A stretch of 64,000 nucleotides of DNA, from the NCBI RefSeq assembly GCF_000353285.1, contig NZ_KB731324.1, positions 6,103,018-6,167,017 of the forward strand. The letters run 5' to 3'. Positions 18,579 to 34,695 of the stretch are shown here, piece by piece. The notes below the pieces were generated by a model. It did no database searches and was not told the origin of the DNA. It was given only the letters and a program-made list of their open reading frames with translations. Origin of the DNA: Leptolyngbya boryana PCC 6306 (lineage in GTDB: Bacteria > Cyanobacteriota > Cyanobacteriia > Leptolyngbyales > Leptolyngbyaceae). The position numbers were made by a program, and so were the translations under genes. Positions within the stretch are counted from its first letter, which is position 1; each line of letters starts with the position of its first letter.

Positions 18579-19754
18579 GTGATAATTCTTGTCTTGGGTT
18601 TAGTTGTTTCTATCATTGCGATCATTATTTTTTCTGGCAAGCTTAGCCGCGCCTTAAATAGCGCCCCAAAGATTTCAATTGATCCTGATTCAATTGATTC
18701 TTCTTTCTCGGTATCCGTCATCATTCCTGCATATAACGAAGCTGCAAATATCGAGGCTTGTGTCACATCTGTTTTAGAAAGTACAGATTTAGAGATTGAA
18801 GTTTGGGTTGTGGATGATCAATCGACGGATGAAACGGCTGCGATCGTTGAACTTCTACAAGGCTCCCGTCTAGATCCCAGATTGAAACTTTTATCGGGAA
18901 AATCCCGCCCAGGAGGGAAGATTTGGGTCGGCAAAAATTGGGCCTGTACTCAAGCCGTGCAGCAGGTTCAAAGCGAGTTTCTTTTGTTTATCGATGCGGA
19001 TGTGCGATTGAAGTCAAAGAGTATTGAAACGGCGATCGCGTATGCTCAACAGGAAAAAATCGATTTGCTTTCGCTTGCCGTTGTGATCCTGTGTCGTCAT
19101 TGGTCGGAATGGTTAGTGCAGCCGATTGTTGTGCTTTTACTAGGGGTCGGATTTGATTTTGCTCCTGTCAATGATCCGACTTCGGACACCGCGTTTGCGG
19201 CAGGACCATTCATGCTATTTCGTCGTAGCGCTTATGACGCGATCGGCGGACATGCAGCCGTGCACGATCAAGTGGTGGAAGATGTCGAATTGAGCCGTCG
19301 CATTAAACAACAACATTTCAAACTGTGGTACGGTTTGGGAGCTAATCTGGCTGAAGCGCAGATGTATCAATCTTTTTCGGCTTTGTGGGAAGGTTGGACG
19401 AAAAATTGGTTTATGGGGTCAAATCGCAACTATCAAGCCGCCTTGTACTGTGTATTTGTCACATTCATGATTTTTGCGCTGCCTTGGATTGGGATAGTGA
19501 GTGGACTGATTGATCTGGCGTTCTCCTCGCTCACGATTTGGAATGCAATCGCGTTGAGCATCAGCGCGATCGGCATTTTTCTGCAATATCGAGTTCGACG
19601 CGAGAGCGCGCCCTTTACTACTATCCCACTGCAAAACTGGTGGATGATGGGAGCCGGAGGATTAGTGGTTTGTGCGATCGTCTTGACCTCGATCATTAAA
19701 ACCGAGACAGGTTGGGGTTGGACTTGGCGAGGCAGACAGTTAGAAAGACTCTAA
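18579..19754 (+). CDS. Membrane-bound family 2 glycosyltransferase
   Basis: A 391-residue GT2 enzyme starting at GTG. An N-terminal helix (1-20) anchors it. The catalytic domain shows SVIIPAYNEAANIEAC (46-61), the VVDDQSTDET nucleotide-sugar site (78-86), the DADVRL metal motif (139-144), AAGPFMLFRRSAYDAIGGH acceptor region, and the ED of VVEDVELSRR near residue 230. Three C-terminal helices follow from about 285. The arrangement resembles HpnB/CruC-like lipid-linked transferases. The acceptor cannot be deduced. It is convergent with the cellulose operon, and both share a strong terminator, so it is adjacent to but not part of that operon. Confidence 0.85.
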   Translation: MIILVLGLVVSIIAIIIFSGKLSRALNSAPKISIDPDSIDSSFSVSVIIPAYNEAANIEACVTSVLESTDLEIEVWVVDDQSTDETAAIVELLQGSRLDPRLKLLSGKSRPGGKIWVGKNWACTQAVQQVQSEFLLFIDADVRLKSKSIETAIAYAQQEKIDLLSLAVVILCRHWSEWLVQPIVVLLLGVGFDFAPVNDPTSDTAFAAGPFMLFRRSAYDAIGGHAAVHDQVVEDVELSRRIKQQHFKLWYGLGANLAEAQMYQSFSALWEGWTKNWFMGSNRNYQAALYCVFVTFMIFALPWIGIVSGLIDLAFSSLTIWNAIALSISAIGIFLQYRVRRESAPFTTIPLQNWWMMGAGGLVVCAIVLTSIIKTETGWGWTWRGRQLERL

Positions 19755-19846: not shown

Positions 19847-19874
19847 AAAGAGGGCATGCTAATATGCCCTCTTT
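19847..19874. terminator. Bidirectional terminator between GT2 gene and bcsA
   Basis: AAAGAGGGCAT (19847-19857) pairs with ATGCCCTCTTT (19864-19874) around a 6-base loop, with A-rich sequence to the left, so it can stop transcription from both sides. Confidence 0.9.
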
Positions 19875-19893: not shown

Positions 19894-22449
19894 CTAGTTC
19901 AGCGTATCGACAAGCTGCTTAATTTTGCTTTCTTGTCGTTGCATCACTTGCTCGGGAAACTGCAATTCAACGATTGTGCGATCGCCCATGATCAGGTCTA
20001 CCTGTTCTACCTTTGCAAGCAGTCGATTTGGCAAAGATTCATCCGCAGTCTGACTCAAGAGCACTCCAACCAAAGGCTGATAGTACTCTAAGAGCCTGAC
20101 ATCTTCGATCGCGTCAGATTGAATTTCTAATCTCAAACTGCGATTGCTAATTTGAGTCGCAATGCCTGAGTAGAATTGCCCTCTCCAATAAAGTTGAGCA
20201 TGGGCATGAATCTGTTTCCGCACTCTCGTGACATTGCTTGGCTCAGCATTGCGCTGCTGGAACGATCGAAAGAAGCTGCCTGCAATGAACTTGAAAGACT
20301 GCAACGGATCGTCCACGTTTTCCCGTTGCTGCGAGTACCATTCCCGCACATCTGAGTAAATCACAATACTGAGGGCATCCAGCTGAGCGCGGGTGAGATC
20401 AATAAACTCGATCGATAACATCGACTGCGTTTCACTGACCGGGACGATCCGAATAATCTGACCTTTTACAAACGCGCGCGCACCGTAGTCTCCCACCAGT
20501 TCGATTTCTGCATCTTCGAGAAAATCTGCCCAACTCTCAACAATCAACTGGCAACCCGTTTCGCTGACATTCTGAGTATAACCAGGAACGGCTGCCCCAT
20601 TGCTGTAAAGGGTTGCAGGCAACTTGCGATCGAGTCGATGCGCCCGTCTCAACTGGGGTTGTTCTAATGCAACCAATAATGCCGAAACAATCAGCAGCAG
20701 GTTGAAAATACTCCAAGCCATGTTGACTAACACAGCTTCCGCATCTTGAGGGCGCAAAATCAACCAGAACGGAACTGCCGCGATCGCAGCGATAACTAGC
20801 AACGTGACGACCGCTAGCGCTCTTGCTGAACCCCAATCGAAACTGCGTTTTGTCACCGATAACCCCTTATCTGTGACGTTGAAGCTTCCCAACTTCGGAT
20901 TGACCAATGCGAGGAATGTCACAATTCCAGCGTGAAATGACATGGCAAACTCATAGATCTCATTCCAGAACGAGAAGCGGACATTTTTGTAAGTAATGTA
21001 GTTTGCGTAAGTTGACACAAAGAAGTGTGGCAGTGCGTAAGCCAGCGTCTCTAACCCTAAACCTCGGATTGGATTAATCCCGAACACGAGAAACAGTGCA
21101 GGCGCAAGCGCATACATCAATCGAGGAAATCCATAGAAGAAGTGAGACGTTGCACTGAAATAACAGATTCTTTGCCCGATCGACAATTTCAACTTCGGAT
21201 TGAACAAAGGGTTTTCAATCCGAAGAATTTGTGCCATTCCTCGCGCCCATCGAATTTGTTGACCGACATAAGCTGAAAATTTCTCTGGTGCAAGTCCAGC
21301 TACCATGATCTTGTCATAGTAAATCGACTCATAGCCCAAAGAATGCAATCTCAACGAGGTATGACAATCTTCCGTCACCGTTTCTACTGCAATTCCACCC
21401 ACTTCTAGTAAGTGCGATTTTCGGACAACTGCCGCAGAACCGCAGAAAAATGCTGCGTTCCAAAAATCATTTCCTTTTTGTAGCACCTTGTAGAACAATT
21501 CATTCCCGACTGGAATTTTTCCGCCTGTCTGCAAGTTCCGTTCAAAGGGATCAGGGTTGTAGAACCAGTGAGGGGTTTGAACGAGAGAAACTTTAGGACT
21601 GTAGAAGAATCCAACGGTGTCTTTCAAAAAGTGACGGACTGGAATGTGATCACAATCGAGAATGAGAACTAGGTCGCCCCCTGTCCGACGCAGCGCTGTA
21701 TTGATGTTTCCAGCTTTCGCATGGTCGTTGTTATCTCGCGTAAGCAGCGTGCATCCTAGCTCAGCACACATTTGCCGTAACTGCTCACGTCTTGCCCGGA
21801 ACTTCTCTGCACGACCATCATCGAGAATGTAAACTCGTTTCTTGTCAGCCGGATAGTCGATCGCTAATGCCCCGAGTGCGGTTTTGCGAACAATCTCCAC
21901 ATCCTCACTGTAAGTTGGAATGTAGATATCGACCTTAAACCATTGATTCTCGGGAATCGTTGCCAGATCAACAGCCTTGCGCTCTTTGAGCTTTAGGGTT
22001 TGGAAGAACGCTAAAGCGAGCGTCATGATGGCATATAGTTCTGCTAAAAAGAGCAGCACACTACACACTGCATCAAGCCACCCACTTGTCAGATTGAGGG
22101 TGTAGTTGGTGCGGTAGTAAAGATAGCGAAACGTTGTAATCAGACTGAGCCACACCATGAAAAGGTGTAGATACTCGCTCGTCTGTCCTTTTGCGTGCTT
22201 GTGCTCGATGTCTGTGACGCCCCAGCCCAATCCGATTAAAAGGATCGCCACAATTCCTTGCTGCCAAATTTCAAGCGGAGTGATGATGAGAGGAATTGCG
22301 AGTACGAGCAGCAGCACCATCAGGAAGACAAGCTGAGGAGCGCTATTTCTCTGAAAAAGTCGATCGAAGAAATTTGGAATGAGTTCGACAAACCAAGCTA
22401 GAACTCTTTGTCCTTTACTTTGGTAGCGTCTTGGAGATGAATTTGCCAT
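19894..22449 (-). CDS. bcsA: Cellulose synthase catalytic subunit BcsA
   Basis: An 851-residue membrane glycosyltransferase that polymerises UDP-glucose into beta-1,4-glucan. All hallmark motifs are present (numbered from the TTG at 22455, two residues before the ATG used): LDDG (211-214), DCD (268-270), TED (361-363), QQIRW (399-403) and the gating loop FNVTDK (525-530). About eight transmembrane helices surround the catalytic domain. The C-terminal PilZ domain keeps both c-di-GMP motifs, RRAHR (603-607) and NVSETG (629-634), so the enzyme should be activated by c-di-GMP. The ATG at 22449 follows GGAGG overlapping the bcsB stop. It is the last gene of a five-gene operon. Confidence 0.96.
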   Translation of the reverse strand: MANSSPRRYQSKGQRVLAWFVELIPNFFDRLFQRNSAPQLVFLMVLLLVLAIPLIITPLEIWQQGIVAILLIGLGWGVTDIEHKHAKGQTSEYLHLFMVWLSLITTFRYLYYRTNYTLNLTSGWLDAVCSVLLFLAELYAIMTLALAFFQTLKLKERKAVDLATIPENQWFKVDIYIPTYSEDVEIVRKTALGALAIDYPADKKRVYILDDGRAEKFRARREQLRQMCAELGCTLLTRDNNDHAKAGNINTALRRTGGDLVLILDCDHIPVRHFLKDTVGFFYSPKVSLVQTPHWFYNPDPFERNLQTGGKIPVGNELFYKVLQKGNDFWNAAFFCGSAAVVRKSHLLEVGGIAVETVTEDCHTSLRLHSLGYESIYYDKIMVAGLAPEKFSAYVGQQIRWARGMAQILRIENPLFNPKLKLSIGQRICYFSATSHFFYGFPRLMYALAPALFLVFGINPIRGLGLETLAYALPHFFVSTYANYITYKNVRFSFWNEIYEFAMSFHAGIVTFLALVNPKLGSFNVTDKGLSVTKRSFDWGSARALAVVTLLVIAAIAAVPFWLILRPQDAEAVLVNMAWSIFNLLLIVSALLVALEQPQLRRAHRLDRKLPATLYSNGAAVPGYTQNVSETGCQLIVESWADFLEDAEIELVGDYGARAFVKGQIIRIVPVSETQSMLSIEFIDLTRAQLDALSIVIYSDVREWYSQQRENVDDPLQSFKFIAGSFFRSFQQRNAEPSNVTRVRKQIHAHAQLYWRGQFYSGIATQISNRSLRLEIQSDAIEDVRLLEYYQPLVGVLLSQTADESLPNRLLAKVEQVDLIMGDRTIVELQFPEQVMQRQESKIKQLVDTLN

Positions 22450-22455
22450 GATCAA

Positions 22456-24984
22456 TTAACCTCCAACTTGCTTCAAGAAAAGCTGACTGATGCCATAGAG
22501 CACGACTGAGCTGCCGACAATGCCGACCGGAAGCAGATACCACTGTTCTTGCAGGAATTGCCTTGCCTTGCTCACAATGCTTGTGTCTTCAATTCGACGG
22601 CGCTCCGATTGGCTCACAAACTGCATTTGATAAGCGTTGGAATCGAAAGGTGAAGGATTCGTTTGATTCGTGCTGATGAGAGCCGTGTCTTCTTTAAGTT
22701 GGTAGAACCAAAGGTCGTTGCTGAAGACATCTTGAACTTGCTTCAAGCCGAAATCTGTTTGAGCGGTCAGTGCTAGTAGAACGCGATCGCGATTCCAAGG
22801 CGACATCATGCTCTTGATCACACCGCCTTGATCGGGTAAGACGTTAATCTTCTCTTTGCCTGATTCTCTTGTGAAAGAATCCATCAGACGAAAACCGCTA
22901 TTGGCTTGCAGCATTTCCTGAATGGGGAAGCGATCGCGTGTCCCAATTCCGACTAAATGCCGATCTTTTTTCACTGCTTCAGTCAGGCTTCCAGGCTTGT
23001 AGACATCGAGCTTGACGGATTGAGCTTGGCTGAGCCGCCCTAAACGCTCACTAAATTTCAGCAGCGTCATCACATCTGCTTCAGTCGGAGCGTCAGGAAC
23101 CACGATCGCCGTTTGGGAAAGATCTTGCGGCGCGGCAAATGGATAACCCGTGGTCAACAGTTTGAGGTCTGGTAACTCGACAGAGTTTTCACGGTTGATC
23201 TTGAACTCTGTTGAACTGTGAACGGTTCCCGACAGCTGCTGATCGCTGACCTGGCCGCATTTCAAAGATTCTTTGGGATAGAGATCGAAAGCAACATCAA
23301 TTACAGAATCCGACTTGATCAAATTGGGCGGCAAATCAACGTTGAACGTTTCATTACTTGCGCCATTATCAGAAGTCAGTTTCTTGCTTCCGACTGTAAC
23401 GCCATCAATTCGTACAGAGAGCGAAGACTTGCGGGTGTTGACTTGAGCGCTGTAGCTATATTTCAAATTCATTGAGCTACCCCGTAACATGCGATCGTCG
23501 GGCAATGCTCGGAACTGAAACTGAACAGGTGGCGCAGAAGTTCCACGGACTGTCACATCCTTGAATGGCTTGTTATCTAAGCCTTTCAACGCACTCAATT
23601 GGAATGAATCTTCAAGTGGCAAGTAGCGTTCCCAACTGCGAGGTTTCGGGCTTTCGACTTCCGCAACATTCTGAACTAAGACAACTTGCCCTGCCCCAAT
23701 CTGGCTATTGCTCGGTTGCACCAGGAATTGAACTGCTTTCGCAACTGCTTCTGGACTGTTTCCAGAAGCAATGAGAACCGGAATACCACCGTTGTTGAGC
23801 GTTGCTAGCATCAATACACCGACATTGTCAGGAAGTGCCGTTTTATTCCCATCTACGATCTGATCGTTCGTGATGTTCAAAGGCAACTTCATCGATTTGA
23901 GAGTCGGCTGATCTTTAGGTGTGCCGATGACGATTAAGCGATCGTTCCACTGAAACTTCTTGGTGTCTCTTACGAGACTGGTTTCTAGCGATCGAAAATC
24001 AGCTAACCGTCCGAAATGCGCGTGAAAACGACTCGTAGCAGTGAGCCAAGCTTCATTCACTTGTCCGGGCAGAAGATAGTTCAACCGAGTTGTATCTAAG
24101 CCGAGATTGTCAAAGAACGGCAAAGGATAGCGGCTGAAATCTAATGCGAGTGGCTGAGGCTGATAATCTAGCACCACTTTCGAGTCAGGCAGAACTTCTG
24201 ACCAGAGGGCTTTATCGTCAGGATTTGCACAAGTTGGGGAATTAGATTGCTGAGCGACTAAAGTGACTTCGTTGTAATCCTGAATCAGATTCGCTGGGAT
24301 ATTCACCACTGCTTCACCGATTTGAGCATTCTTCAAGTTCAATGGAACGCTGCCGATGCTGGTATCGTTAACGCGGACAATCAAATTCGATTTGTCTGCC
24401 ACGATCGCGGGAGAATGCTGGAATCGAACGACAACCTTTGCCGTTTTGACCGTCCAATTTTTGGGTCGTGTGAAGCCAATCCGTGCTTCAGCGTAGGTTC
24501 CCTGTAAACGGAAACGGTTCCCGATCGCTGGACTCCGGTTGAATTCTAAAACGTATCGGCTCAATGCTTCAGCGCTGGCAGCTTTCGTTGGCTCAGACTT
24601 TGGCTCGGCTTTGGGTGCAGATTGCGACGGTGCGGGTATAGCCGATTCTACAGGCGCAGGTTGTGACGGTGCAGGCTCGTAGTAAGGCTCTGCTGCTGGT
24701 GGTGTTTCAACGATAGGAGCAGGTTCAGGCTGATAGACAGGGGCTTGTGGGCGATAGACAGGGGCCTCAACTGGCGTGGATGGGAGCTTAAAGTCCCGAA
24801 TGAGCTGATCTTCCTGTCTTTGAACACCTTGAGCTGAGATAGGTTGCGGGGTGTGCAGCAGCACGATCGCAAGCCCAGTGACTAAACCTGCACAGCAGAG
24901 AATCAGTGCCCGTTTTAGCAGTGTTTTAGAAAATCGACGTGGATGTCCTGAATGAGAGGACTGATCTGAAAACCGTTTGTTCAT
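22456..24984 (-). CDS. bcsB: Cellulose synthase regulatory/periplasmic subunit BcsB
   Basis: An 842-residue BcsB-type protein. A signal anchor lies at about residues 24-45 and a C-terminal transmembrane helix near 815-835 (WYLLPVGIVGSSVVLYGI), the arrangement by which BcsB docks on BcsA in the inner membrane. The periplasmic part contains two repeats of carbohydrate-binding and flavodoxin-like domains; the repeated pairs NRFRLQGTYAEARIGF/FQFRALPDDRMLRGSS and LIVRVNDTSIGSV/LSVRIDGVTVGSK mark the two halves. An unusual proline-rich stretch covers about residues 68-135. The start overlaps the bcsZ stop as ATGA. Partner of BcsA, needed for chain translocation in known systems. Confidence 0.92.
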   Translation of the reverse strand: MNKRFSDQSSHSGHPRRFSKTLLKRALILCCAGLVTGLAIVLLHTPQPISAQGVQRQEDQLIRDFKLPSTPVEAPVYRPQAPVYQPEPAPIVETPPAAEPYYEPAPSQPAPVESAIPAPSQSAPKAEPKSEPTKAASAEALSRYVLEFNRSPAIGNRFRLQGTYAEARIGFTRPKNWTVKTAKVVVRFQHSPAIVADKSNLIVRVNDTSIGSVPLNLKNAQIGEAVVNIPANLIQDYNEVTLVAQQSNSPTCANPDDKALWSEVLPDSKVVLDYQPQPLALDFSRYPLPFFDNLGLDTTRLNYLLPGQVNEAWLTATSRFHAHFGRLADFRSLETSLVRDTKKFQWNDRLIVIGTPKDQPTLKSMKLPLNITNDQIVDGNKTALPDNVGVLMLATLNNGGIPVLIASGNSPEAVAKAVQFLVQPSNSQIGAGQVVLVQNVAEVESPKPRSWERYLPLEDSFQLSALKGLDNKPFKDVTVRGTSAPPVQFQFRALPDDRMLRGSSMNLKYSYSAQVNTRKSSLSVRIDGVTVGSKKLTSDNGASNETFNVDLPPNLIKSDSVIDVAFDLYPKESLKCGQVSDQQLSGTVHSSTEFKINRENSVELPDLKLLTTGYPFAAPQDLSQTAIVVPDAPTEADVMTLLKFSERLGRLSQAQSVKLDVYKPGSLTEAVKKDRHLVGIGTRDRFPIQEMLQANSGFRLMDSFTRESGKEKINVLPDQGGVIKSMMSPWNRDRVLLALTAQTDFGLKQVQDVFSNDLWFYQLKEDTALISTNQTNPSPFDSNAYQMQFVSQSERRRIEDTSIVSKARQFLQEQWYLLPVGIVGSSVVLYGISQLFLKQVGG

Positions 24985-26207
24985 GGGAGGGATATAGTTG
25001 CAGCTTGAGTAGGATCTGTAAGATAAGCCGCCATGACATTTGGAGGGAGCAGTCCAAACCAGGCGAGATTCTGAGAGTAATAAGCGGAATCGTTATCCCA
25101 GAATCCGTTGCGATATGCAGGCAGGAGCTTTTCGGTGAGAATTTCCTCAGCGATCGCGGGATCAATCACTCGGAAGGCAGCATATAACATGCCGTATTGC
25201 GAGGTGGCTTCGTAATCCACAACAGCCTGTCCTTGTAAATCGAGTTTGGCAGGAATTTTGCGCTGAGCTTGCCACATCTGTTTGAGATGTCCCAGATTTG
25301 ATTGAAGGTATGACTTCGCTCTTGGCTCATTAAACCAGGTCGCATCCAAGGCAACCCGCCACCAAACTCGACTCGCATCAAAACCATATTGGGTAATCAG
25401 TGGACTGCCTGAATCTAATGCACTGTACTGTCCATTTTTCGGATCGAGGGCAATCCAATCGCTCGGTAAGCCGACAGGGGAGACTTTCGAGGATTGCTCT
25501 AACATCTGATAGCTACTATCGACTAGACTCAGCCAATTTCGCTCTGAATCAACTTGGGCAAAGAGACGAAAGGCATAAGGGGCAAGGTATGAGGGGTTCG
25601 CTTTGAGCTTTTCGTTGCGCTGAAATAGATTCACAGCGCCAGGGAGGAGATATCGTTTCTGATCGGCTGGAAGCGTGACGGTTGCTTTTGCCCAAAGATC
25701 TTTTAATTTACGGCGCGCGAGGGTGAGGTAGTCCGATCGCTGCCATCGTCGCGATGCCAAAATTAATGCGGTAATTCCATCAATATCAGCATCGCTCGCA
25801 ACATTTGGATCGAGGATTCTCCACTTGCCTCCAGCGTCCTGTCCCCATTTCCAAGCCCAGAGAGAATCGATCGGAGTCTGAGATTGATCTTGTCGTCGCA
25901 GGTTGGTTTCTGCCCAGCGTAGCGTTCGTTCAAATGTTTCGGGATCGTCTGCAATCACGGCTCGAAGCATGGCGTAGGCTTGACCTTCTGAAGTCGAGCG
26001 ACCCGTCGCTTCCCAGTCGATCACGCGACCATCGGCTTGAATAAATCGCTTTCGATAAGCTGTCCAACTCTCAGCAAGTAAGGCACGATGGTCAGAAACT
26101 TCCACGCTAGAAGCCAATGTCGATCGCGGAGGTGGAACGGTGCAAGACACTAAGCCACCGATGCTAATGCATCCGATAATCGTGAGCGGGACAAGCAATC
26201 GCAGCAT
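24981..26207 (-). CDS. bcsZ: Endoglucanase BcsZ, glycoside hydrolase family 8, lipoprotein
   Basis: A 408-residue GH8 endo-beta-1,4-glucanase. The N-terminus is a lipoprotein signal with lipobox LVSC (Cys22), so it is probably membrane-anchored rather than free in the periplasm. The family acid Glu is Glu74 in STSEGQAYAM and the conserved Asp cluster is DADID (139-143); the TPIDSLWAWKW segment also fits. BcsZ-type enzymes are required for or improve cellulose export by trimming tangled chains. It lies 20 bp after the TPR gene and overlaps bcsB by ATGA, so it is cotranscribed. Confidence 0.92.
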   Translation of the reverse strand: MLRLLVPLTIIGCISIGGLVSCTVPPPRSTLASSVEVSDHRALLAESWTAYRKRFIQADGRVIDWEATGRSTSEGQAYAMLRAVIADDPETFERTLRWAETNLRRQDQSQTPIDSLWAWKWGQDAGGKWRILDPNVASDADIDGITALILASRRWQRSDYLTLARRKLKDLWAKATVTLPADQKRYLLPGAVNLFQRNEKLKANPSYLAPYAFRLFAQVDSERNWLSLVDSSYQMLEQSSKVSPVGLPSDWIALDPKNGQYSALDSGSPLITQYGFDASRVWWRVALDATWFNEPRAKSYLQSNLGHLKQMWQAQRKIPAKLDLQGQAVVDYEATSQYGMLYAAFRVIDPAIAEEILTEKLLPAYRNGFWDNDSAYYSQNLAWFGLLPPNVMAAYLTDPTQAATISLP

Positions 26208-26227
26208 ACAGTTAAGTCACCGTTAAG

Positions 26228-28573
26228 TTAATAACGTTCCCAAGGCGGCTGGAAACCGCGTTGTTGCAACATTCCTTCCTGGAGTTTCTGAATTCGTTGC
26301 TCCAGTTCTAAATCTGATGCTCCTTGCTCGGTCTGTTGAATTTTCAGCCGTTCAAATTGATCTAGTGCTGCCAAAGGTTGACCTTGAGCCGCAGAGAGTT
26401 CAGCCAGAGATCGCTGAGCAATCAAATTGTCTGGATTCATTTCCAGGATTTGAGTGTAGATATTTTCGGCTGATGTAAATTGTCTCTGTTGGAACTTCAC
26501 TCCCCCTAAACCAGAAAGCGCGTCTAAATTCTCAGGTTCAACTTTCAAAATTGCTTGATAAGCATCTTCTGCACGATTACTATTTCCGAGTGTTTGCTCT
26601 AATTGAGCTTTGAGGAATAACAGAGAAAGATTGGTGCGATCGTCTGATGCAGTTCGCCGTACTTTAGCAATCAGCCGATTTGCCTGTGCTCTCGCTTGCA
26701 GCGGATCGCGACTGGCTAACAGTTGAATCAACCGCACCTGAACTGGAACATTTGTGGGATCAGCTTCAATGAGAGCGTTGTATAAAGCTTCACGGCTGAC
26801 ATCACTCGGTAAAATTCCTACCAAGGTATAGAGTTCAGCAGGGGTTTCAGAAGGGCGAGACTGCAAGAATCGAGCCAGCACAACTTCTGCTTCACGCTCT
26901 GAAATTTTCTTTGCCTGATAAGCAACAGAAGTGCGACCGAGTTGAAGTTGTAAATCGTCAGGATTGTCTGCAATTAAGCGATCGTACAATCTCAAGGCAT
27001 CGTCAAAGCGGTTTTGAGACAGTCTCAAGCCTGCGAGAGAACGAATTGCCCCTGCTTTCAACTCATCATTTGCTGAGGCACTCGCAATTAAAGTTTCATA
27101 GCGTTTTGCGGCAGCTTCTAAGTTACCTTGTCGGCGATCAAGTTCTGCAAATAGCAGTTCTGGAGCTTGGTCGCGTGCGCCAACTGGAGTAGATTGATAG
27201 CGAGATAAAGCCGCTCTTGCCGCTTCAAATTCGTTACGCTCAATCAAAAGCTGCGCGTAACGGAAGTTCAAGAACGGTTCACTGACTTCTTTCTGGATTA
27301 ATGTCTCATAGATGTCGAAGAACTCAGGATCGGGTTCTAATCGAACCAGTGCTTGAGCGATCGCAAATTGTTGAGCAGGCTCGTTCGGCAAACTTTGTAA
27401 AATCGGTCTTAAACGTTGCCGAATTTCGCTTTGATTCAGCGTGCCAAGCTGGCTCTCTAATGCCAATTGCTGAATGACTAAAGTCTGATTGTTCGGTTGT
27501 TGCTGAACGAGTTGACGATAGATCTGTAGAGCCGTTTGGCGCTCTTGAGAAATTCCACCCAAGACATCTGCAATCTCTCGAAGCAGCGTTGGAGAAGGGT
27601 TCGATGTTGATGCTAAGACCTGTCTGTACAATGCTCCTGCCTGTGCTAGAAGTTCTGGGCGGTTTTCCTGTCTGCCCAGTTCATTCAATGCACGTGCTAA
27701 CGGCAACCGAGAATCAGTGCGATCGCGTAATGGATCAAGGATTGCGAGTGCCTGCGCCGACTGCCGATTTGCCAAATAAGCTTGAGAGAGTTCAGAGCGT
27801 ACTTGAATTCCAAACGCATTCATTTGCTTTGGAAGTTGCCCTTCTAAAATTTGAATAGCTTGAGTATTGTTTCCTGCTGCACGCAAAGCACGGGCATAGG
27901 CGATCGCTGCATTGCCCGTAATTGGAGTACGAGTGCGCGAACGATATCGCTCAAATAACTCCAGTCCTTTCTGGCTATCTCCAGCATAGGTATAGATTTG
28001 AGCGGCTCCTAACAGAACTTCTGGCGTTGGATTTGTTGCTAAGACCATCTCATAATCTGCAAGTGCCTCGGTAAAACGACCTTGATAGCCATACAGCAAG
28101 GCACGTTGGGCACGTGCTTCAGTTTCCCCTGCGTTGAGTTGAAGCAGCGTCGTCAAGGCATCGATCCCTTGCTTCTGCCACTCCGGCTTAAAGCTTGCTA
28201 AAAGTCCAACTGTTTTCAGCGCTAATTGATTGTTCGGATCTTGCTGCAACACTCGTTGATAGGCTTGCCACGCCTCAGAATCACGACCTGCTCGACGCAG
28301 CGAGATCGCTAATCCTAGCTTCGCTTCAACTGAGTCTGGATAGCGTTGAATCGATCGCTGGAATGCTTGGATTGCATCGTCTACCCAACCTTTGCCGAGT
28401 AGCGTATAAGCTTGACGGACATCCGCAGGGATGTTTTGCGTTTGAGCGATTGCCATTTGTGCCTCTGCAAGAGTCAGCAGAGGTGTTCCGGCAAGTAGCC
28501 ATCCAAGGCAAAGAGAGAGCGTGAACTGTTTCTTAACGCGAGACATCTTAGCAGGGTGTTTCCGTGTACTCAT
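26228..28573 (-). CDS. BcsC-like periplasmic TPR protein without barrel domain
   Basis: A 781-residue exported protein with a signal peptide (ATG at 28573 or 28546; cleavage near AIAQTQ). The mature part is a continuous array of TPR-type helical pairs such as AFQRSIQRYPDSVEAKLGLA and AYQRVLQQDPNNQLAL, extending to the C-terminus, which ends in an amphipathic helix and a short PPWERY tail. E. coli BcsC has the same kind of TPR solenoid but continues into an outer-membrane barrel of about 300 residues; none is present here. Position between a barrel gene (12 bp upstream) and bcsZ (20 bp downstream) suggests it is the periplasmic half of a split BcsC. Confidence 0.85.
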   Translation of the reverse strand: MSTRKHPAKMSRVKKQFTLSLCLGWLLAGTPLLTLAEAQMAIAQTQNIPADVRQAYTLLGKGWVDDAIQAFQRSIQRYPDSVEAKLGLAISLRRAGRDSEAWQAYQRVLQQDPNNQLALKTVGLLASFKPEWQKQGIDALTTLLQLNAGETEARAQRALLYGYQGRFTEALADYEMVLATNPTPEVLLGAAQIYTYAGDSQKGLELFERYRSRTRTPITGNAAIAYARALRAAGNNTQAIQILEGQLPKQMNAFGIQVRSELSQAYLANRQSAQALAILDPLRDRTDSRLPLARALNELGRQENRPELLAQAGALYRQVLASTSNPSPTLLREIADVLGGISQERQTALQIYRQLVQQQPNNQTLVIQQLALESQLGTLNQSEIRQRLRPILQSLPNEPAQQFAIAQALVRLEPDPEFFDIYETLIQKEVSEPFLNFRYAQLLIERNEFEAARAALSRYQSTPVGARDQAPELLFAELDRRQGNLEAAAKRYETLIASASANDELKAGAIRSLAGLRLSQNRFDDALRLYDRLIADNPDDLQLQLGRTSVAYQAKKISEREAEVVLARFLQSRPSETPAELYTLVGILPSDVSREALYNALIEADPTNVPVQVRLIQLLASRDPLQARAQANRLIAKVRRTASDDRTNLSLLFLKAQLEQTLGNSNRAEDAYQAILKVEPENLDALSGLGGVKFQQRQFTSAENIYTQILEMNPDNLIAQRSLAELSAAQGQPLAALDQFERLKIQQTEQGASDLELEQRIQKLQEGMLQQRGFQPPWERY

Positions 28574-28585
28574 GATGCAGGTGAA

Positions 28586-30184
28586 TTATTGAACCAGTCT
28601 TCCTCTGGGTGTGACATCAAATTCGCTTCTAAGACGAACGCCCGCGATGGTTTCCGAGAAATTATTGCGCTGTTGGACTGAGAAGCCCACACGCAAGTTC
28701 GACAGAAGTTTGAAGTCGTAGAACAACTCCAAAGCATCGGGTACGTTTTCGCCACTGTTCCGTCTGAGCTTGTCATTTGACAACGCGCGACCGTAAGCGA
28801 GTCCTAAACGATCGTCAGGGCTAAATAAATCGAGGAAGGTGATGCCCCCACTGAAGGTGTCGCCACTTTCGTCTAGATCAAGATTGTTATAGCGTCCATA
28901 TCGCCCGAAGATGCCCATCTTCAAGTTAGGAATGAAAACTTCTGCATTGACACCATAAGCTTGTTCTCGATCGCCTTTTAATAATCCAGTACGACCTCCG
29001 CCCCGGCTCAGCTGGAAAATTTCTTGGAAGCCGCTGTTTGAGCCAGAATCTCGATCAGTGGCGTAGGTTCCACGCACGATCAAGTTTCCGTAGCGCATCC
29101 CCAACTCACCCGCAAAACCGTCTAAGGCAAAGTCGCTTAATCCCTTTGAAGAAGAGAAGACCGCAGCTTTTGCTTCGATGTTGTCCGTCAAGCTGAAATT
29201 AACAAGTGCGCCAGGACGAGATGCAATACCCGTTGCGCTGAGAGCAGGGTTCGTTTGGAAAATCGGATTGAAGAAGTGAGTTGCACCGTCTTTTGCAAAA
29301 CTATTGCGATCGAAGTAGGACGTAAAATCGATTTGTCCAACTACAAAGCGCAGGTTGGGAATGTCACGCGGAGACGTTGCAAAATACAGCTCGTTTACAT
29401 TAAAGCCGTTGTCGGGCGTATCTGTGAAACCTCTTCCAGTCGTGACATCTAAAGTTGCTCCCACTAAGGCACTTGGGCTAAGAGGGTATATGCCGTAAAG
29501 TCTTGCCCGTGCCGAGGTTTCATCACCTTGATAAAGAAAAACACCTTGAAAGGTCAAACTTGGAGGTGTTAAGGCTGTACTTCGCATGAACGGACGATTG
29601 GGTCTTCCTAGCATCTCCGCATCGCGTCCGGATTGGGCTAAGAAGTTCGCTTTATTTTGGGCGGCAATCGATGGAGCTTCTGTCGATGTTGTCGGAGATT
29701 GCAGTGCGATCGTAGGGTTGAATGCGTCTGGGTTAATGCCGCGAATCGATGCAGTCGAAGCCTTAAAACGGGGCGTGGGGACTAGATTCGTACCGACATC
29801 ACTGCCAGAGAGGGTAGAAGCGACTAGTGATGGAGAATCTGGCTCAGGACGTTGAACGCTTTGAGCAGCAATTGGAACTGTAGCAGCAGGCGGAGCGAAA
29901 CTGGGCATCGCAGCAGTTACAGGCTGCACAGAGGTCGCTTGACCGGATAATTGTTGAATTAAATCTGCTTCGCTCTGATTCACGGGTTGCGATTTCTCAA
30001 TCAGCAAAGCTGGGTTGCTGGGTTGGGAAACAGCAGCAATCTTTTCAGGAGATTTGGAATTTAAGGGGTTTGCTTGGGCTGAATTACCGAAACTTGCCTG
30101 AGTCGTCAGGACTGTTAAGACTGACGAGAAGGCAACCCAAGAAATGAGAGAGATAAATTTAGGAAACCGGGATACATCTGACAT
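28586..30184 (-). CDS. Outer-membrane beta-barrel protein of the cellulose operon
   Basis: A 532-residue exported protein, first gene of the operon. After a signal peptide (cleavage near residues 32-40) comes a 150-residue Ala/Pro/Ser-rich periplasmic linker. From about residue 205 to the end there are regularly spaced amphipathic strands with aromatic ends (LTFQGVFLYQG, ARARLYGIYPLS, ALVGATLDVTTG, MRYGNLIVRGTYATD, YGVNAEVFIPNLKMGIFGRYGRY, LRVGFSVQQRNNF), the pattern of a porin-sized barrel. It ends GRLVQ and not in Phe. I infer that it provides the export pore that the BcsC barrel provides elsewhere. No similarity to a named family was recognised. Confidence 0.8.
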   Translation of the reverse strand: MSDVSRFPKFISLISWVAFSSVLTVLTTQASFGNSAQANPLNSKSPEKIAAVSQPSNPALLIEKSQPVNQSEADLIQQLSGQATSVQPVTAAMPSFAPPAATVPIAAQSVQRPEPDSPSLVASTLSGSDVGTNLVPTPRFKASTASIRGINPDAFNPTIALQSPTTSTEAPSIAAQNKANFLAQSGRDAEMLGRPNRPFMRSTALTPPSLTFQGVFLYQGDETSARARLYGIYPLSPSALVGATLDVTTGRGFTDTPDNGFNVNELYFATSPRDIPNLRFVVGQIDFTSYFDRNSFAKDGATHFFNPIFQTNPALSATGIASRPGALVNFSLTDNIEAKAAVFSSSKGLSDFALDGFAGELGMRYGNLIVRGTYATDRDSGSNSGFQEIFQLSRGGGRTGLLKGDREQAYGVNAEVFIPNLKMGIFGRYGRYNNLDLDESGDTFSGGITFLDLFSPDDRLGLAYGRALSNDKLRRNSGENVPDALELFYDFKLLSNLRVGFSVQQRNNFSETIAGVRLRSEFDVTPRGRLVQ

Positions 30185-30587
30185 GCTTCACCCACACCAT
30201 ATTGACTCGATAGACAGGTTTTTACTGTTTGGACTTGGACGAACTGCGAAGCCTGTTCTAAGTAATCTCACGAATTAACTCGTGCTTTTAAATACTTAAT
30301 TTGATGACCCTACGGCTTCTGGAAAGCTGAATTTCAGTACTACAACTTGCGCCAGCATTTCCCATGCCTAGAGTTCCCGCGAAATCTCGGAATGAAACCT
30401 CAAATTTTCTCTGGTTATTACTCTTTTAACTTGCCTGGTAAAAAATGACACAATTATTTGGACGGTGGGCAAAGTGTCCTTGAAAATTAGAAATGTGAGT
30501 CAGTTCAGCTGTCAGGGAATGAATAAGGGTGTTGTCTGACATTTGCGATCGCTAGACAAATTGACTACCCTCTACCCATGATGAGTT
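30185..30587. other. Divergent upstream region of the cellulose operon
   Basis: About 400 bp between the minus-strand cellulose operon and a plus-strand lipoprotein gene. It contains one HIP1 site (30545-30552) and no reading frame or strong hairpin. It must hold the operon promoter, but none was assigned. Confidence 0.5.
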
Positions 30588-31283
30588 ATGAAAAGTTTGC
30601 AGCAATTTCTCCGTAAATTTGCGAGTAGTACCCTGATTTCGCTTCTGATTCTCTGCACAGGCTGTACCCAGATGCCATTTCTGAGTAGTTCTCAACAGAC
30701 GACGACTTTATCCATGCAAGTTGAGGCAACTGGAGAAACAGGCGTTTACAAAATCTCCGGTCAAACAAATCTGCCAGAACAGACTCAGATTACCGTTCAA
30801 GCAATCCGAGCGCTGCAAATTCCGGGACGAGATGTACAAATCGCTGCTGAGCGGTCTTACTCCATCCTGGCAAAGACTCAAGTGAGTGTTGAGAAAGGCA
30901 AATGGCAAACCTCGCTGAATCTGTTGCAACCTGGTCAGAATGGGGCTTTAGAAACTTGGCAGCAGAGCAATCAAGAATTGGCTTTGAAATTTCAGCCCGA
31001 TAATCAGGTGAGATTTCTAGCACTGACTGATCCAACTCGAAGTTCGATCTCAGTGCAATCACAAGCCCAAAAGAATCAAGCAACCAGTGTTCAATTCACT
31101 GCAGATGGGAAAAGTTACTTACAGACAGAACAGTGGATGTCGATCGAGCCGCCAACTGCGAAAGTGGCGAGTCAGAAATCCGGTACAACTGTGGTGAAAG
31201 TTTCAGTTCAACCTGTCAATAAAGTAAACGATGTGAAAGAGCAGATTGATGCTGCACTTCCTGTAAACGCATTTATGCGTTGA
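30588..31283 (+). CDS. Predicted lipoprotein, unknown function
   Basis: A 231-residue protein with an N-terminal signal of the lipoprotein type: basic start, hydrophobic core LISLLILCTGC with Cys26 as probable lipidated residue, although Cys rather than Leu at -3 is not ideal. The mature part begins with a Ser/Thr/Gln-rich linker and then has beta-rich stretches (TGVYKISGQTNLPEQTQITVQA, SSISVQSQAQ) suggestive of an Ig-like fold. I do not recognise a family. It is divergent from the cellulose operon and could be an accessory envelope factor, but that rests only on position. Confidence 0.65.
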   Translation: MKSLQQFLRKFASSTLISLLILCTGCTQMPFLSSSQQTTTLSMQVEATGETGVYKISGQTNLPEQTQITVQAIRALQIPGRDVQIAAERSYSILAKTQVSVEKGKWQTSLNLLQPGQNGALETWQQSNQELALKFQPDNQVRFLALTDPTRSSISVQSQAQKNQATSVQFTADGKSYLQTEQWMSIEPPTAKVASQKSGTTVVKVSVQPVNKVNDVKEQIDAALPVNAFMR

Positions 31284-31375
31284 CACAAGATAGGTTCTGC
31301 AGGCTCCCAAATGCGGGACTTTGAATTGAAGCAATGATGGGGCACTTGAGCAGGTGAGCTTGAGTGCTTTTTTGA

Positions 31376-32125
31376 TTACTTCTGGACTACCCAAGCTGGA
31401 TCAAGTGCTTGAAAGCGTTGAGCGAGATGATTCAGAGGAGCATCAGAGACAGGAGTTGAAGTTGATGCAGGCTCGACGCGCAGCGTGCTTTGGATCGTTT
31501 CAATCTCAGTCATGATGTGCTGAAGTTGGCTTTGGAGCTTTTGCATTTTTGCGATCGCATCCGCTTCATTGGGAGCAGTAGTAGACTGAGCTACCGCAGT
31601 CGAGCGTGAAAATCCCAGATAGGTTTGGGCTGCATGAAGAGGTACGGCAGTTTGAATTTGAGCCGCAACAGGTTGAGTCCCTTGAGTTGACCTGACAGCA
31701 GGTTGAGGCGTGACCAACTTAGGAACGCCAGGAGTAGGGAGCGGCACATCTTCATCGAGGAAAAACTTCAAGTTAGAATCTGCTAGATAAGCTTCAGACA
31801 TCAGCGTGTTCTGCAACTGAGCTTCTTTCTGCTTCAGCTGCTTTTCTACTTCTAGAAGTTGCGCTTCAGCGAATTCTGAGTTTTGGGCAGCACGTCTCCA
31901 ACCGAGAGCCGCACAGATCGTTAGGCTAGTTCCCAAGCTGAGAAAGCCGGCGATCGCGAGATAAGGAGTTGCAACCTCTCTCAATTGTCCCTCAAATATA
32001 CGCTCTTCCTTAAATTGAACCGCGAGCGGCTGAGAACCATATAGCGTAAGAGGGACAGCAGAGGCTGAGAAGACCGCTCCAGCACTGAGGGCAGCAGGCA
32101 CAAAGAGTTTTGCAAGTGAAGACAT
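31376..32125 (-). CDS. Membrane-anchored coiled-coil protein, unknown function
   Basis: A 249-residue protein with two hydrophobic segments (about residues 10-30 and 54-76) joined by a short loop, then a coiled coil at about 80-110 (EAQLLEVEKQLKQKEAQLQNTL), a proline-rich middle (PLPTPGVPKLVTPQP) and a second helical segment at about 190-215 (AIAKMQKLQSQLQHIMTEIETIQ). The C-terminal half is probably cytoplasmic. No known domain is recognised. It points towards the lipoprotein gene (30588-31283), which ends 92 bp away. A link to cellulose is possible but unsupported beyond location. Confidence 0.65.
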   Translation of the reverse strand: MSSLAKLFVPAALSAGAVFSASAVPLTLYGSQPLAVQFKEERIFEGQLREVATPYLAIAGFLSLGTSLTICAALGWRRAAQNSEFAEAQLLEVEKQLKQKEAQLQNTLMSEAYLADSNLKFFLDEDVPLPTPGVPKLVTPQPAVRSTQGTQPVAAQIQTAVPLHAAQTYLGFSRSTAVAQSTTAPNEADAIAKMQKLQSQLQHIMTEIETIQSTLRVEPASTSTPVSDAPLNHLAQRFQALDPAWVVQK

Positions 32126-32595
32126 AAGTGACTGTTCTGAGTATCTTGGTTAGAAAACCGGGTTAGAGCAGTAATTTCTTTGAGTGATCGCGGCCAGGAT
32201 TCACGATGGAAACGGAATCAAGACAACCGACGGCACTCGGAAGGATTACTTATTGCTACTAACCTTAATCTGTTTAAGAGGGAAAACAGGTGTAAATCTG
32301 ATGAAGAATCGCCAAATCACAGAAAAGTTTCTGTAAAAATGCGGTTGTTTTTATCAAGATTCACGAAATTCAACGGCTAACAGGGGTTAGATCCGTAGAG
32401 GCGAAATCGCAGAGGTTTGTCGCGATTTCAGGAATTCACAAAAGTTTCATCAATGAAGATGAGACTTTTGTCTGAGGGTTACGTCAAGGATGGAAGAGTA
32501 TTTTAGATGAGCATTTTCGCGATCGCTGCTTCAGGTTTAATAGCGCAAGATTCCTCTGCTTTATTCAGGTTTCTCTTTCAAACATTCCCGAAATC
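32126..32595. other. Gene-free stretch with two tandem hairpins
   Basis: About 470 bp between divergent genes. Two hairpins stand out near its right end: 32403-32429 and 32438-32471. No reading frame looks real. Confidence 0.5.
32403..32471 (+). promoter_or_regulatory. Tandem hairpins upstream of the GH5 cellulase gene
   Basis: First hairpin: GAAATCGC (32403-32410) with GCGATTTC (32422-32429). Second: a 14-bp stem, 32438-32451 with 32458-32471, with one U-G pair and a 6-base loop. Neither has a T run. They lie 125-190 bp upstream of the cellulase start and may be part of its leader. Confidence 0.4.
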
Positions 32596-33864
32596 ATGAG
32601 ACTCAATCAGCGAATTGATTGCTTTGTAAATAGGCTCCGTGAATTCTTGATTCGATCAATTTTGCATCGGCACTTGAGCCGTAAACCGTTCTATCCAATT
32701 CTGTTTGTCGCCGCGATCGCCGCAATTCTTTTCAATTTCATTGCACCTGAATCTTTGCCTTCCGTGGCTCAAATGACCGTGCGAATTCAACTTCCGCTCT
32801 CGACACGGGGATCTGAGATTGTAGATGCGGCAGGGCAACCTGTGTTGCTGCGAGGGGTGAACTGGTTTGGACTGGAGACAGAGACGAATTCGCCGCATGG
32901 GCTTTGGGCGCGTGACTATAAAGAAATGTTGGGGCAGATCAAGGGGTTGGGATACAACGTGATTCGATTGCCGTATTCGGTGCAAGGATTGCGGGCGGCT
33001 GAGGTAAGCGGGATCAATTTTGCGATCGGGAGCAATCAGGAATTACAGGGGAAAAAGCCGATCGAGGTAATGGATGCAGTGATCCAAGAGGCAGGACAGC
33101 AAGGATTGATGGTGTTACTGGATAGCCATCGCTTAAATAATCAGCGCATTCCTGAGCTTTGGTATGGCGATGGATTTACAGAAGAGGATTGGATTTCCAC
33201 TTGGACAATGCTGGCAGAGCGATATAAGAATCAGCCGCATGTGATTGGGGCTGATTTGAAAAATGAACCGCATGGCAAAGCAAGTTGGGGTACTGGAGAT
33301 CGAGCAACAGATTGGCGATTGGCGGCAGAACGGGCTGGAAATGCCATTTTGAAAGTAAATCGCAATTGGCTGATTGTGGTCGAAGGGGTTGAGAACAATG
33401 TGCCAGGGCAGAGACTGAAGCACTGGATGGGCGGCAATCTTGAAGGGGTGAAGCGATTCCCGGTTCGTTTAGCCGTGCAGAATCGCGTGGTTTACTCGCC
33501 GCATGAATATGGTGCAGGGGTCTTTCAGCAGCCTTGGTTTTCTGCGATCGATTTTCCGCGGAATCTGACCACCCGATGGGAGCAAGGATTTTTTTATATT
33601 GTCCGACAAAAGATTGCGCCGATCTTTGTTGGAGAGTTCGGCGGTCGGCAAGTTGACGAAAAATCTAAAGAAGGGATTTGGCAGCGCCGATTTGTGGATT
33701 ATTTGAAGCGCAACCAATTAGGATTCGCGTATTGGAGTTGGAATCCGAATAGCCAGGATACAGGTGGGATTTTGCAGGATGATTGGGTCGCGATCGATCA
33801 ACCGAAACAACAGTTACTCAATCAATTGCTCCCCGTTCAACCGATGCAGACCCAAGCTCGTTAA
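32596..33864 (+). CDS. Membrane-anchored GH5 cellulase
   Basis: A 422-residue glycoside hydrolase of family 5 (endo-beta-1,4-glucanase type). An uncleaved or cleavable signal anchor lies at about residues 32-52. The catalytic domain starts with LLRGVNWFGLE (84-93), with the acid/base Glu224 in ADLKNEPH and nucleophile Glu347 in IFVGEFGG. Conserved SPHEYG (301-306) and WSWNPNSQDTGG also fit the family. It is the second cellulase next to the cellulose operon after BcsZ and may remodel or release surface cellulose, or digest external glucan. Transcribed alone. Confidence 0.88.
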   Translation: MRLNQRIDCFVNRLREFLIRSILHRHLSRKPFYPILFVAAIAAILFNFIAPESLPSVAQMTVRIQLPLSTRGSEIVDAAGQPVLLRGVNWFGLETETNSPHGLWARDYKEMLGQIKGLGYNVIRLPYSVQGLRAAEVSGINFAIGSNQELQGKKPIEVMDAVIQEAGQQGLMVLLDSHRLNNQRIPELWYGDGFTEEDWISTWTMLAERYKNQPHVIGADLKNEPHGKASWGTGDRATDWRLAAERAGNAILKVNRNWLIVVEGVENNVPGQRLKHWMGGNLEGVKRFPVRLAVQNRVVYSPHEYGAGVFQQPWFSAIDFPRNLTTRWEQGFFYIVRQKIAPIFVGEFGGRQVDEKSKEGIWQRRFVDYLKRNQLGFAYWSWNPNSQDTGGILQDDWVAIDQPKQQLLNQLLPVQPMQTQAR

Positions 33865-33963
33865 CAGCACACTGTTTGAATATCAGTTGGTTTCACGTCA
33901 ATGGGTCTCACGCTCATGGATTTAACGTTAGTGGGGCGGGGACATTCCTCGCCAACACTTTAC

Positions 33964-34695
33964 TTAAAGTTCTTCACCGGGTTCTAGAATGCGCTGAAAG
34001 AGATAGCCTGTTCCACGAGCCGTCAAGATCAGTTCTGGATTGCTCGGATCGTCTTCCAGTTTGGCGCGCAGGCGGGAGATATGTACGTCTACAACGCGGG
34101 TATCGACATGGCGCTCAGGCGTATAGCCCCAAACTTCTTGGAGAATTTCCGATCGCGAAAATGGCTCGCCGGATCGGCTGACTAAGAGTTCGAGCAGGCT
34201 GAATTCCATGCCCGTTAAGCGAATCCGTTCGTCCCCTTTGTAAACTTGGCGTTTGTTGGTATCGATACGAATGCTGTTAATGTGGATGACGCCAGAACTG
34301 GGAATTCCGGTTACGCCCGTTTTGTCTACCCGACGCAGAACCGAACGAATGCGAGCTTCGAGTTCTTTAGGCGAGAATGGCTTGACGACATAATCATCTG
34401 CACCCAATTCGAGTCCGGTAATACGATCGGCAACATCACCCAGAGCAGTGAGCATGATGATCGGGACATCGGATTCTTTACGGAGTTCTTGGCAGACACC
34501 GTAGCCATCCAGCTTTGGCATCATGACGTCGAGAACGACGAGATCGGGATCAGCGTTGCGGAATGTATCAAGGGCTTCTTCCCCATCAGCAGCCGTCACG
34601 ACATCGTAACCAATCATTGAGAGCCGAGTTTCTAGAATACGACGAATGCTTGCTTCATCGTCTACAACCAGAATTTTTTCTTTATGACTTTCCAC
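33964..34695 (-). CDS. rpaB: Response regulator RpaB
   Basis: A 243-residue OmpR-type regulator matching cyanobacterial RpaB (plastid ycf27). The receiver contains VDDEASIRRILETRLSMIGY with phospho-acceptor Asp56 (VVLDVMMPKLDGYG), and Lys in YVVKPFSPKELEARIRSV. The DNA-binding domain has RHVDTRVVDVHISRLRAKLEDDPSNPE. RpaB is phosphorylated by Hik33/NblS and binds HLR1 sites to control high-light and photosystem genes; it is essential in studied species. The kinase gene is not in the window. It is divergent from radA. Confidence 0.94.
   Translation of the reverse strand: MESHKEKILVVDDEASIRRILETRLSMIGYDVVTAADGEEALDTFRNADPDLVVLDVMMPKLDGYGVCQELRKESDVPIIMLTALGDVADRITGLELGADDYVVKPFSPKELEARIRSVLRRVDKTGVTGIPSSGVIHINSIRIDTNKRQVYKGDERIRLTGMEFSLLELLVSRSGEPFSRSEILQEVWGYTPERHVDTRVVDVHISRLRAKLEDDPSNPELILTARGTGYLFQRILEPGEEL

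Follow-up and report, generated by a model that had tools for sequence, protein, structure and literature searches.

The way in which cyanobacteria export their cellulose is still unsettled; the part of a 2025 review drawn on here calls the cellulose route of these bacteria poorly defined and describes their operon type as typically lacking bcsB (PMC12430437). A locus of Leptolyngbya boryana PCC 6306 gives the question a concrete form. It lies within a 64,000-nucleotide stretch of contig NZ_KB731324.1 (positions 6,103,018 to 6,167,017; the window, whose numbering is used for all plain coordinates below), and carries bcsZ, bcsB and bcsA behind two genes encoding a putative outer-membrane β-barrel protein and a tetratricopeptide repeat (TPR) protein. 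The predicted proteins argue with good probability for a Bcs-type operon for cellulose synthesis and secretion, regulated by cyclic di-GMP (c-di-GMP), whose outer-membrane stage would consist of two proteins, a TPR guide and an OprB-derived pore. The pair is a concrete candidate for the exit route of cyanobacterial cellulose.

Organization of the operon

The five genes form a minus-strand operon that spans positions 30184 to 19894 in the list of open reading frames (ORFs), in the order barrel – TPR – bcsZ – bcsB – bcsA, the reverse of the A, B, Z, C order of E. coli. The first gene (28586..30184) encodes a protein of 532 amino acids (aa) with an N-terminal hydrophobic segment that resembles, by eye, a signal peptide, a low-complexity stretch rich in A, S, P and Q, and an OprB-like β-barrel domain. 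It is followed by genes for the TPR protein (26228..28573; 781 aa), the GH8 endoglucanase BcsZ (24981..26207; 408 aa, with LVSC, similar to a lipobox, close to its N terminus), the periplasmic co-catalytic subunit BcsB (22456..24984; 842 aa) and the cellulose synthase BcsA (19894..22455). The ATG at 22449 is probably the start codon of bcsA (giving 19894..22449), because a GGAGG sequence ends 10 nucleotides (nt) ahead of it and just 4 nt ahead of the alternative TTG at 22455. Gaps of 12 bp and 20 bp separate the barrel from the TPR gene and the TPR gene from bcsZ, and bcsZ and bcsB overlap by 4 nt; the original prediction, made from this sequence, had given the same gene order, gaps and overlap, and all were found in place. 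The operon is not a chance arrangement, since the identical gene order recurs across genera.

The cellulose synthase core

Judged by sequence, the locus is a Bcs-type cellulose synthase system, with BcsB encoded beside a BcsA that has GT2 core motifs and a PilZ domain. BcsA matches GT2 and PilZ, and its score for TIGR03030 (CelA; 703.1 bits) lies just above the cut-off of 699.1. It contains DDG, DCD, TED, QQIRW and FNVTDK, which we take to be cellulose synthase motifs, and its Pfam-defined PilZ domain (20371..20655, minus strand) includes RRAHR and NVSETG, presumably the signature of c-di-GMP binding. Both BcsB (PF03170, 6.1e-101) and BcsZ (GH8, 1.9e-43) are clear by Pfam, although they score under the curated cut-offs of the NCBIfam equivalogs. 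With a loose pattern, a lipobox-like motif was found in 30 of 37 BcsZ homologues (one of 38, being incomplete, was omitted).

The original prediction had set this system apart from the HlyD-like export of Thermosynechococcus, and the distinction holds. Both systems are cyanobacterial and combine a PilZ-type synthase with cellulose, but BcsB is present here, whereas the XcsA/XcsB system is described, in the part of the review concerned, as lacking BcsB and as employing an HlyD-like adaptor (XcsB) with TolC as the modelled channel (PMC12430437).

The same genome also carries a second synthase-like gene (L064:10139-12409), encoding a 756-aa protein with GT2 and PilZ that is 31-34% identical to BcsA. 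No bcsB, bcsZ, TPR or barrel match was found near it within its 20-kb stretch.

A barrel related to OprB-type porins

The barrel domain comprises residues 189-532 (28586..29620, minus strand) and was studied in a 34-sequence alignment (A3) and by hhalign comparison with OprB porins. The window's own protein has no Pfam match, and its assignment to the OprB type rests on its homologues and on profile-profile comparison. The OprB profile (PF04966) was matched by 19 of the 34 homologues at E below 1e-4 (best 4e-12) and left unmatched by the other 15, the window's protein included; one match that was checked scored 43.3 bits against a cut-off of 22.9. In an overlapping second set, four of eight homologues matched OprB. 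When the barrel profile was compared by hhalign with seven cyanobacterial OprB porins, the result was 98.9% (E 2.4e-17); this porin alignment (A5) is composed of the porin of the same genome and six weak matches of the barrel profile, with shorter porins omitted, and so is not an independent sample. Direct BLAST comparison with that SLH-OprB porin (L083:9153-10655) gave 25% identity over 268 residues (5e-11). Unlike the cyanobacterial SLH-OprB porins to which it is related (an SLH domain is present in six of the seven scanned), the window's barrel protein has a low-complexity stretch and linkage to a bcs operon; no SLH domain was detected in it at E up to 1, nor in four long relatives at E up to 0.01.

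No corresponding likeness to BcsC was found. PF05420 (BcsC_C) was matched by none of the 34 homologues at E up to 10, BLAST of the barrel protein against E. coli BcsC gave no significant match, and hhalign of the barrel profile against the E. coli BcsC barrel gave 0.6%, with a single-sequence template and thus at lower sensitivity. The AlgE family of Pfam (Alginate_exp) was likewise absent from the homologues' matches at E up to 10. By these profile and pairwise comparisons, the barrel family is related to cyanobacterial OprB-type porins, and similarity to the BcsC barrel was not detected. We infer that it descended from a porin, rather than the reverse. Recruitment or replacement therefore fits better than fission of BcsC, and the term "split BcsC" used in the original prediction stands as regards the separate chains, but not in the sense of a BcsC that broke in two.

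The best-conserved stretch of the barrel (residues 287-318; 29231..29326, minus strand), with a mean identity of 1.00 in the alignment over residues 288-299, is placed between predicted strands 5 and 6 by a model whose predicted local distance difference test (pLDDT) score is below 50 over most of the stretch. We take this to be where loop 3, which narrows the pore of 16-strand porins, would lie; 16 strands, the number also present in the barrel of E. coli BcsC, were counted in the low-confidence AlphaFold2 model (pLDDT 46.5), which was built from 8 sequences. Ahead of the barrel lies a low-complexity linker (29600..30079, minus strand; pLDDT below 50), highly variable in length among relatives. 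The open frame preceding the last 345 aa of the homologues measures 91-906 aa (median 250), these being upper bounds as the starts are unfixed. The longest ORF (L128, 1251 aa) has, by eye, a low-complexity N-terminal stretch, and no Pfam domain, OprB included, was found in four other long ones at E up to 0.01.

A TPR solenoid with an invariant tryptophan

The TPR protein matches many TPR families of Pfam. AlphaFold2 predicts a confident all-helical solenoid over residues 50 to 771 (pLDDT 83.7), with 42 helices, or about 20 units by count, and no barrel. Among 1750 Foldseek matches of this model, the 50 listed are other TPR or repeat proteins; the TPR profile matches BcsC (9b8a) at 8e-18, and generic TPR proteins score higher.

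The chain ends in the tail RGFQPPWERY (residues 772-781; 26231..26260, minus strand), in which Trp778 is identical in all 27 alignment rows. Conservation of the last 12 residues falls at the 98.6th percentile, and PxW[EQ] is present at the tail in 51 of 54 loci. Of the remaining three loci, one has TPWE; two have a broken TPR frame, the piece used having no C terminus. In E. coli BcsC, Trp766 stands at the start of the linker between TPRs and barrel and contacts a putative cello-oligosaccharide; TPR 1 binds BcsB, and the 16-strand barrel follows 19 predicted TPRs (PMC11379886). By its position, Trp778 may be the counterpart of Trp766; the residues around the two do not align by eye.

The two proteins together resemble BcsC in several respects. 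The TPR chain (781 aa) and the barrel domain (344 aa) together come close to E. coli BcsC in length (1157 aa), and in both systems the genes stand in an operon with bcsA, bcsB and bcsZ, the TPR solenoid is of full length, the barrel is of similar length and a Trp lies near the TPR-barrel junction. They differ from it in forming two chains and in the OprB-type barrel without detectable BcsC_C likeness.

Conservation of the two-chain arrangement

A survey of gene order across cyanobacteria had been set beforehand as a check. The one-strand order barrel – TPR – (bcsZ) – bcsB – bcsA was kept in 53 of 54 loci, as far as the stretches reach: 33 contain all five genes, 11 have the same order without bcsZ, nine hold just the first two to four genes, and one (L121) has no barrel. 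Except for L121, all 54 stretches were chosen via the barrel, or are the window itself, and thus show order and not frequency. Seven of the nine partial operons are cut off by a contig end; the remaining two are L126 (genome G427) and L057 (G095). Duplicates (L066, L073, L080) were dropped from the 54 and the near-identical L010 and L011 were kept; the short loci L014-L043, L127 (G427; bcsA-bcsB near a contig end), and L132 and L133 (G201; bcsA-bcsB-bcsZ and barrel-TPR, each at a contig end) stand outside this count.

In the window and at every locus holding both genes, the solenoid and the barrel are separate ORFs, unlike the single chain of BcsC. Their gap has an estimated median of 14 nt (range -54 to 351; 53 loci). 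The two-chain arrangement is a conserved trait. The original reading, an operon of Bcs type that includes BcsB and encodes TPR and barrel as individual chains, was supported, with conservation in many cyanobacteria. Searches of phage and plasmid collections gave no match in the former and one in the latter, on an Allocoleopsis franciscana plasmid, where the barrel and TPR genes are paired away from bcsB, overlap by 4 nt, and are annotated as "hypothetical protein" and "tetratricopeptide repeat protein". The idea that barrel copies occur away from bcs genes was rejected, as the second copies examined sit in second bcs operons.

Barrel and BcsB also occur together. Among 97 genomes of relatives, a strong barrel match (E below 1e-50) was found in 40 and a weak one in 5, while BcsB was matched strongly in the identical 40 and weakly in 7. 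Across 386 genomes sampled evenly from the phylum, 16 genomes spanning seven families had a strong barrel (E below 1e-100; all other matches were weaker than 1e-9), and a strong full-length BcsB (E below 1e-50) was present in the same 16 and in G411. At most five barrel candidates were scored per genome, and the absences rest on those. The union of both samples contains 50 genomes with barrel and BcsB and one with BcsB alone; the genomes are related by descent, so computed probabilities of co-occurrence overstate the case. The single exception, G411, belongs to another class and carries two tandem BcsB-like genes (L119:9195-13936), near which no bcsA, TPR or barrel match was found. Copy numbers are also close, with 20 strong BcsB matches and 19 barrels in the phylum sample, and 61 and 57, respectively, in the relatives (equal in 36 of 40 genomes).

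BcsC_C was over the cut-off in none of the 16 genomes with barrel and BcsB (again with at most five candidates scored per genome). It was matched in 8 of the 386 genomes, in two over the cut-off; the sole one among the 16 is G406, where 2.5 Mb separate the match, which is below the cut-off, from the bcs operon. BcsC-type barrels are listed for five cyanobacterial strains by Simm et al. (PMC4365693). The part of a 2015 phylum survey drawn on here records very few strains with BcsB and GH8 domains, none with BcsC_C, and no confident counterparts of AlgK and AlgE (PMC4594306).

Weak BcsB-like matches (best 4e-11) in G045, G056, G069 and G074, and in G082 and G087 of the relatives, were not counted. 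No bcs match was found by tblastn in the stretches of G045 and G069. In G056, the BcsB-like protein adjoins a MshEN-GT2 fusion (L122:9013-13291), and the pair may be a further polysaccharide synthase that depends on BcsB, in cyanobacteria with small genomes. G046, also uncounted, retains remnants of bcsB, bcsZ and TPR genes (L125:8922-9518), apparently a decayed bcs operon.

Proposed export mechanism and alternatives

The TPR protein and the barrel most likely do the job of BcsC together, by analogy with AlgK and AlgE, which export alginate as a two-chain TPR and barrel system (PMC9734138). Both cases combine synthase-dependent export with a TPR protein and an outer-membrane barrel as separate chains. 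AlgK of P. fluorescens is a lipoprotein with 9.5 TPR motifs (PMC9734138), whereas no lipobox was seen by eye in the far longer solenoid described here; the polymer would be cellulose instead of alginate, and the AlgE family is unmatched. No description of the pair was found in the open-licence literature searched, although an earlier mention in Romling and Galperin 2015 is possible. The two-part exporter may thus be undescribed in this form, as originally suggested, whereas two-chain export as such has a precedent in AlgK and AlgE.

As the protein families suggest, BcsA with BcsB would polymerise and extrude the glucan. Modelled on E. coli BcsC, the TPR protein would act as a guide in the periplasm, the N-terminal repeats lying close to BcsB and the C-terminal tail reaching the pore; the barrel would be a dedicated pore of OprB descent in place of the BcsC barrel, and BcsZ, here probably a lipoprotein, would trim stuck chains. 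The conserved Trp of the TPR tail, to judge from its position, may deliver the glucan into the pore, a role that Trp766 seems to have in E. coli BcsC. In this mechanism the TPR protein would contact both BcsB and the barrel, and the locus would serve cellulose secretion. We assign about even chances to a fuller scenario: cyanobacteria turned one of their OprB-type porins into a dedicated cellulose pore, operated by a separate TPR scaffold, and the invariant Trp at the end of that scaffold guides the glucan inside. If true, a pore for cellulose export would have arisen independently here, and the "BcsC" that cyanobacteria seemed to lack would be accounted for. The gene pair is also a possible case of a pore exchanged for a barrel of a different type, with scaffold and synthase left in place.

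Several observations weigh against this two-protein exporter. Structures of the two proteins, proposed in the original prediction as a check, were predicted singly, and only the TPR solenoid was confident; the barrel model is poor (pLDDT 46.5, from 8 sequences), and BcsC is absent from the best 50 PDB matches listed for it, which are general porins. Small solutes are what OprB porins are known to carry. A search of 37 plus 53 loci (7 common to both sets) gave no chain in which TPR and barrel are fused. G032, G036, G064 and G084 each show two BcsB genes and one barrel place, and the second operon of G064 (L121:6510-13904) is TPR-bcsB-bcsA without a barrel. In G427 (L126), the barrel-TPR pair has no bcsB in the next 7 kb, bcsB-bcsA being on another contig, and in G095 (L057) no bcsA follows bcsB. 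Finally, the partial correlation of barrel and TPR in a mirror-tree analysis was 0.48 (bootstrap 0.28 to 0.58; four proteins, 39 loci) and fell to 0.13 (-0.11 to 0.31; five proteins, 29 loci) with bcsZ added; the signal being lost, the mirror-tree was not used as evidence of contact. The barrel and TPR trees share 26 of 36 splits (at most 3 in 200 label shuffles). This points to co-inheritance and not to contact, because barrel and bcsB share nearly as many (25), as do barrel and bcsA (23). Upstream of the L121 operon, a histidine kinase-like gene lies on the opposite strand.

An uptake role for the barrel, as a porin for cello-oligosaccharides freed by BcsZ or by a neighbouring GH5 enzyme while cellulose exits elsewhere, would suit its relation to OprB, named a carbohydrate-selective porin, the conserved GH5 cellulase-family neighbour and the barrel-less operon L121. 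We nevertheless consider it unlikely, as the barrel is the first gene of a synthesis operon, at a median of 14 nt from the TPR gene, and accompanies BcsB in 50 of 51 genomes, and no sugar transporter is encoded among the five operon genes. Porin likeness without contact to the TPR protein had been named beforehand as speaking against a shared role; the likeness was seen, but the tight linkage of the two genes speaks against a lack of contact.

Somewhat more doubtful still is an exit through another, for example TolC-like, channel docked to the TPR protein, with the barrel in an accessory part, for instance in assembly or anchoring. For XcsAB, export of the TolC type has been put forward as an untested model (PMC12430437), and both L121 and the single barrel for two operons in G064 would agree with such an exit; however, the barrel is present in operons both with and without bcsZ, and the L121 TPR protein may share the barrel of the other operon in the same genome.

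A recent frameshift or fission that cut an ordinary BcsC into two genes, with no functional meaning, like the two-fragment BcsC on record in Acidisarcina and taken as a pseudogene (PMC9693552), is very improbable, and was rejected, given the BLAST and profile comparisons, which at the sensitivity reached found the barrel OprB-like and not BcsC-like, and the separate chains kept over many genera with differing gaps and overlaps.

Flanking regions

The operon is bordered by a block (30588-33864) that adjoins it in many cyanobacteria. The block starts 403 bp from the barrel gene with a divergent ORF (30588..31283, plus strand), lipoprotein-like by eye and present in 38 of the 54 operon stretches, and continues with a second conserved ORF (31376..32125, minus strand; 24 of 54) and the gene of the GH5 cellulase-family protein (32596..33864, plus strand; PF00150, 2.2e-53; 16 of 54). 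An Rfam scan of positions 28000-34000 at gathering scores gave no match.

Downstream of bcsA, a terminator-like hairpin of 11 pairs with a T run lies at 19847..19874 (minus strand); the hairpin scan as a whole gave 9 sites against 11.5 in shuffled sequences, so this one is backed solely by its pairing and position. A glycosyltransferase gene (18579-19754), with below-cut-off likeness to HpnB and CruG, converges on bcsA.

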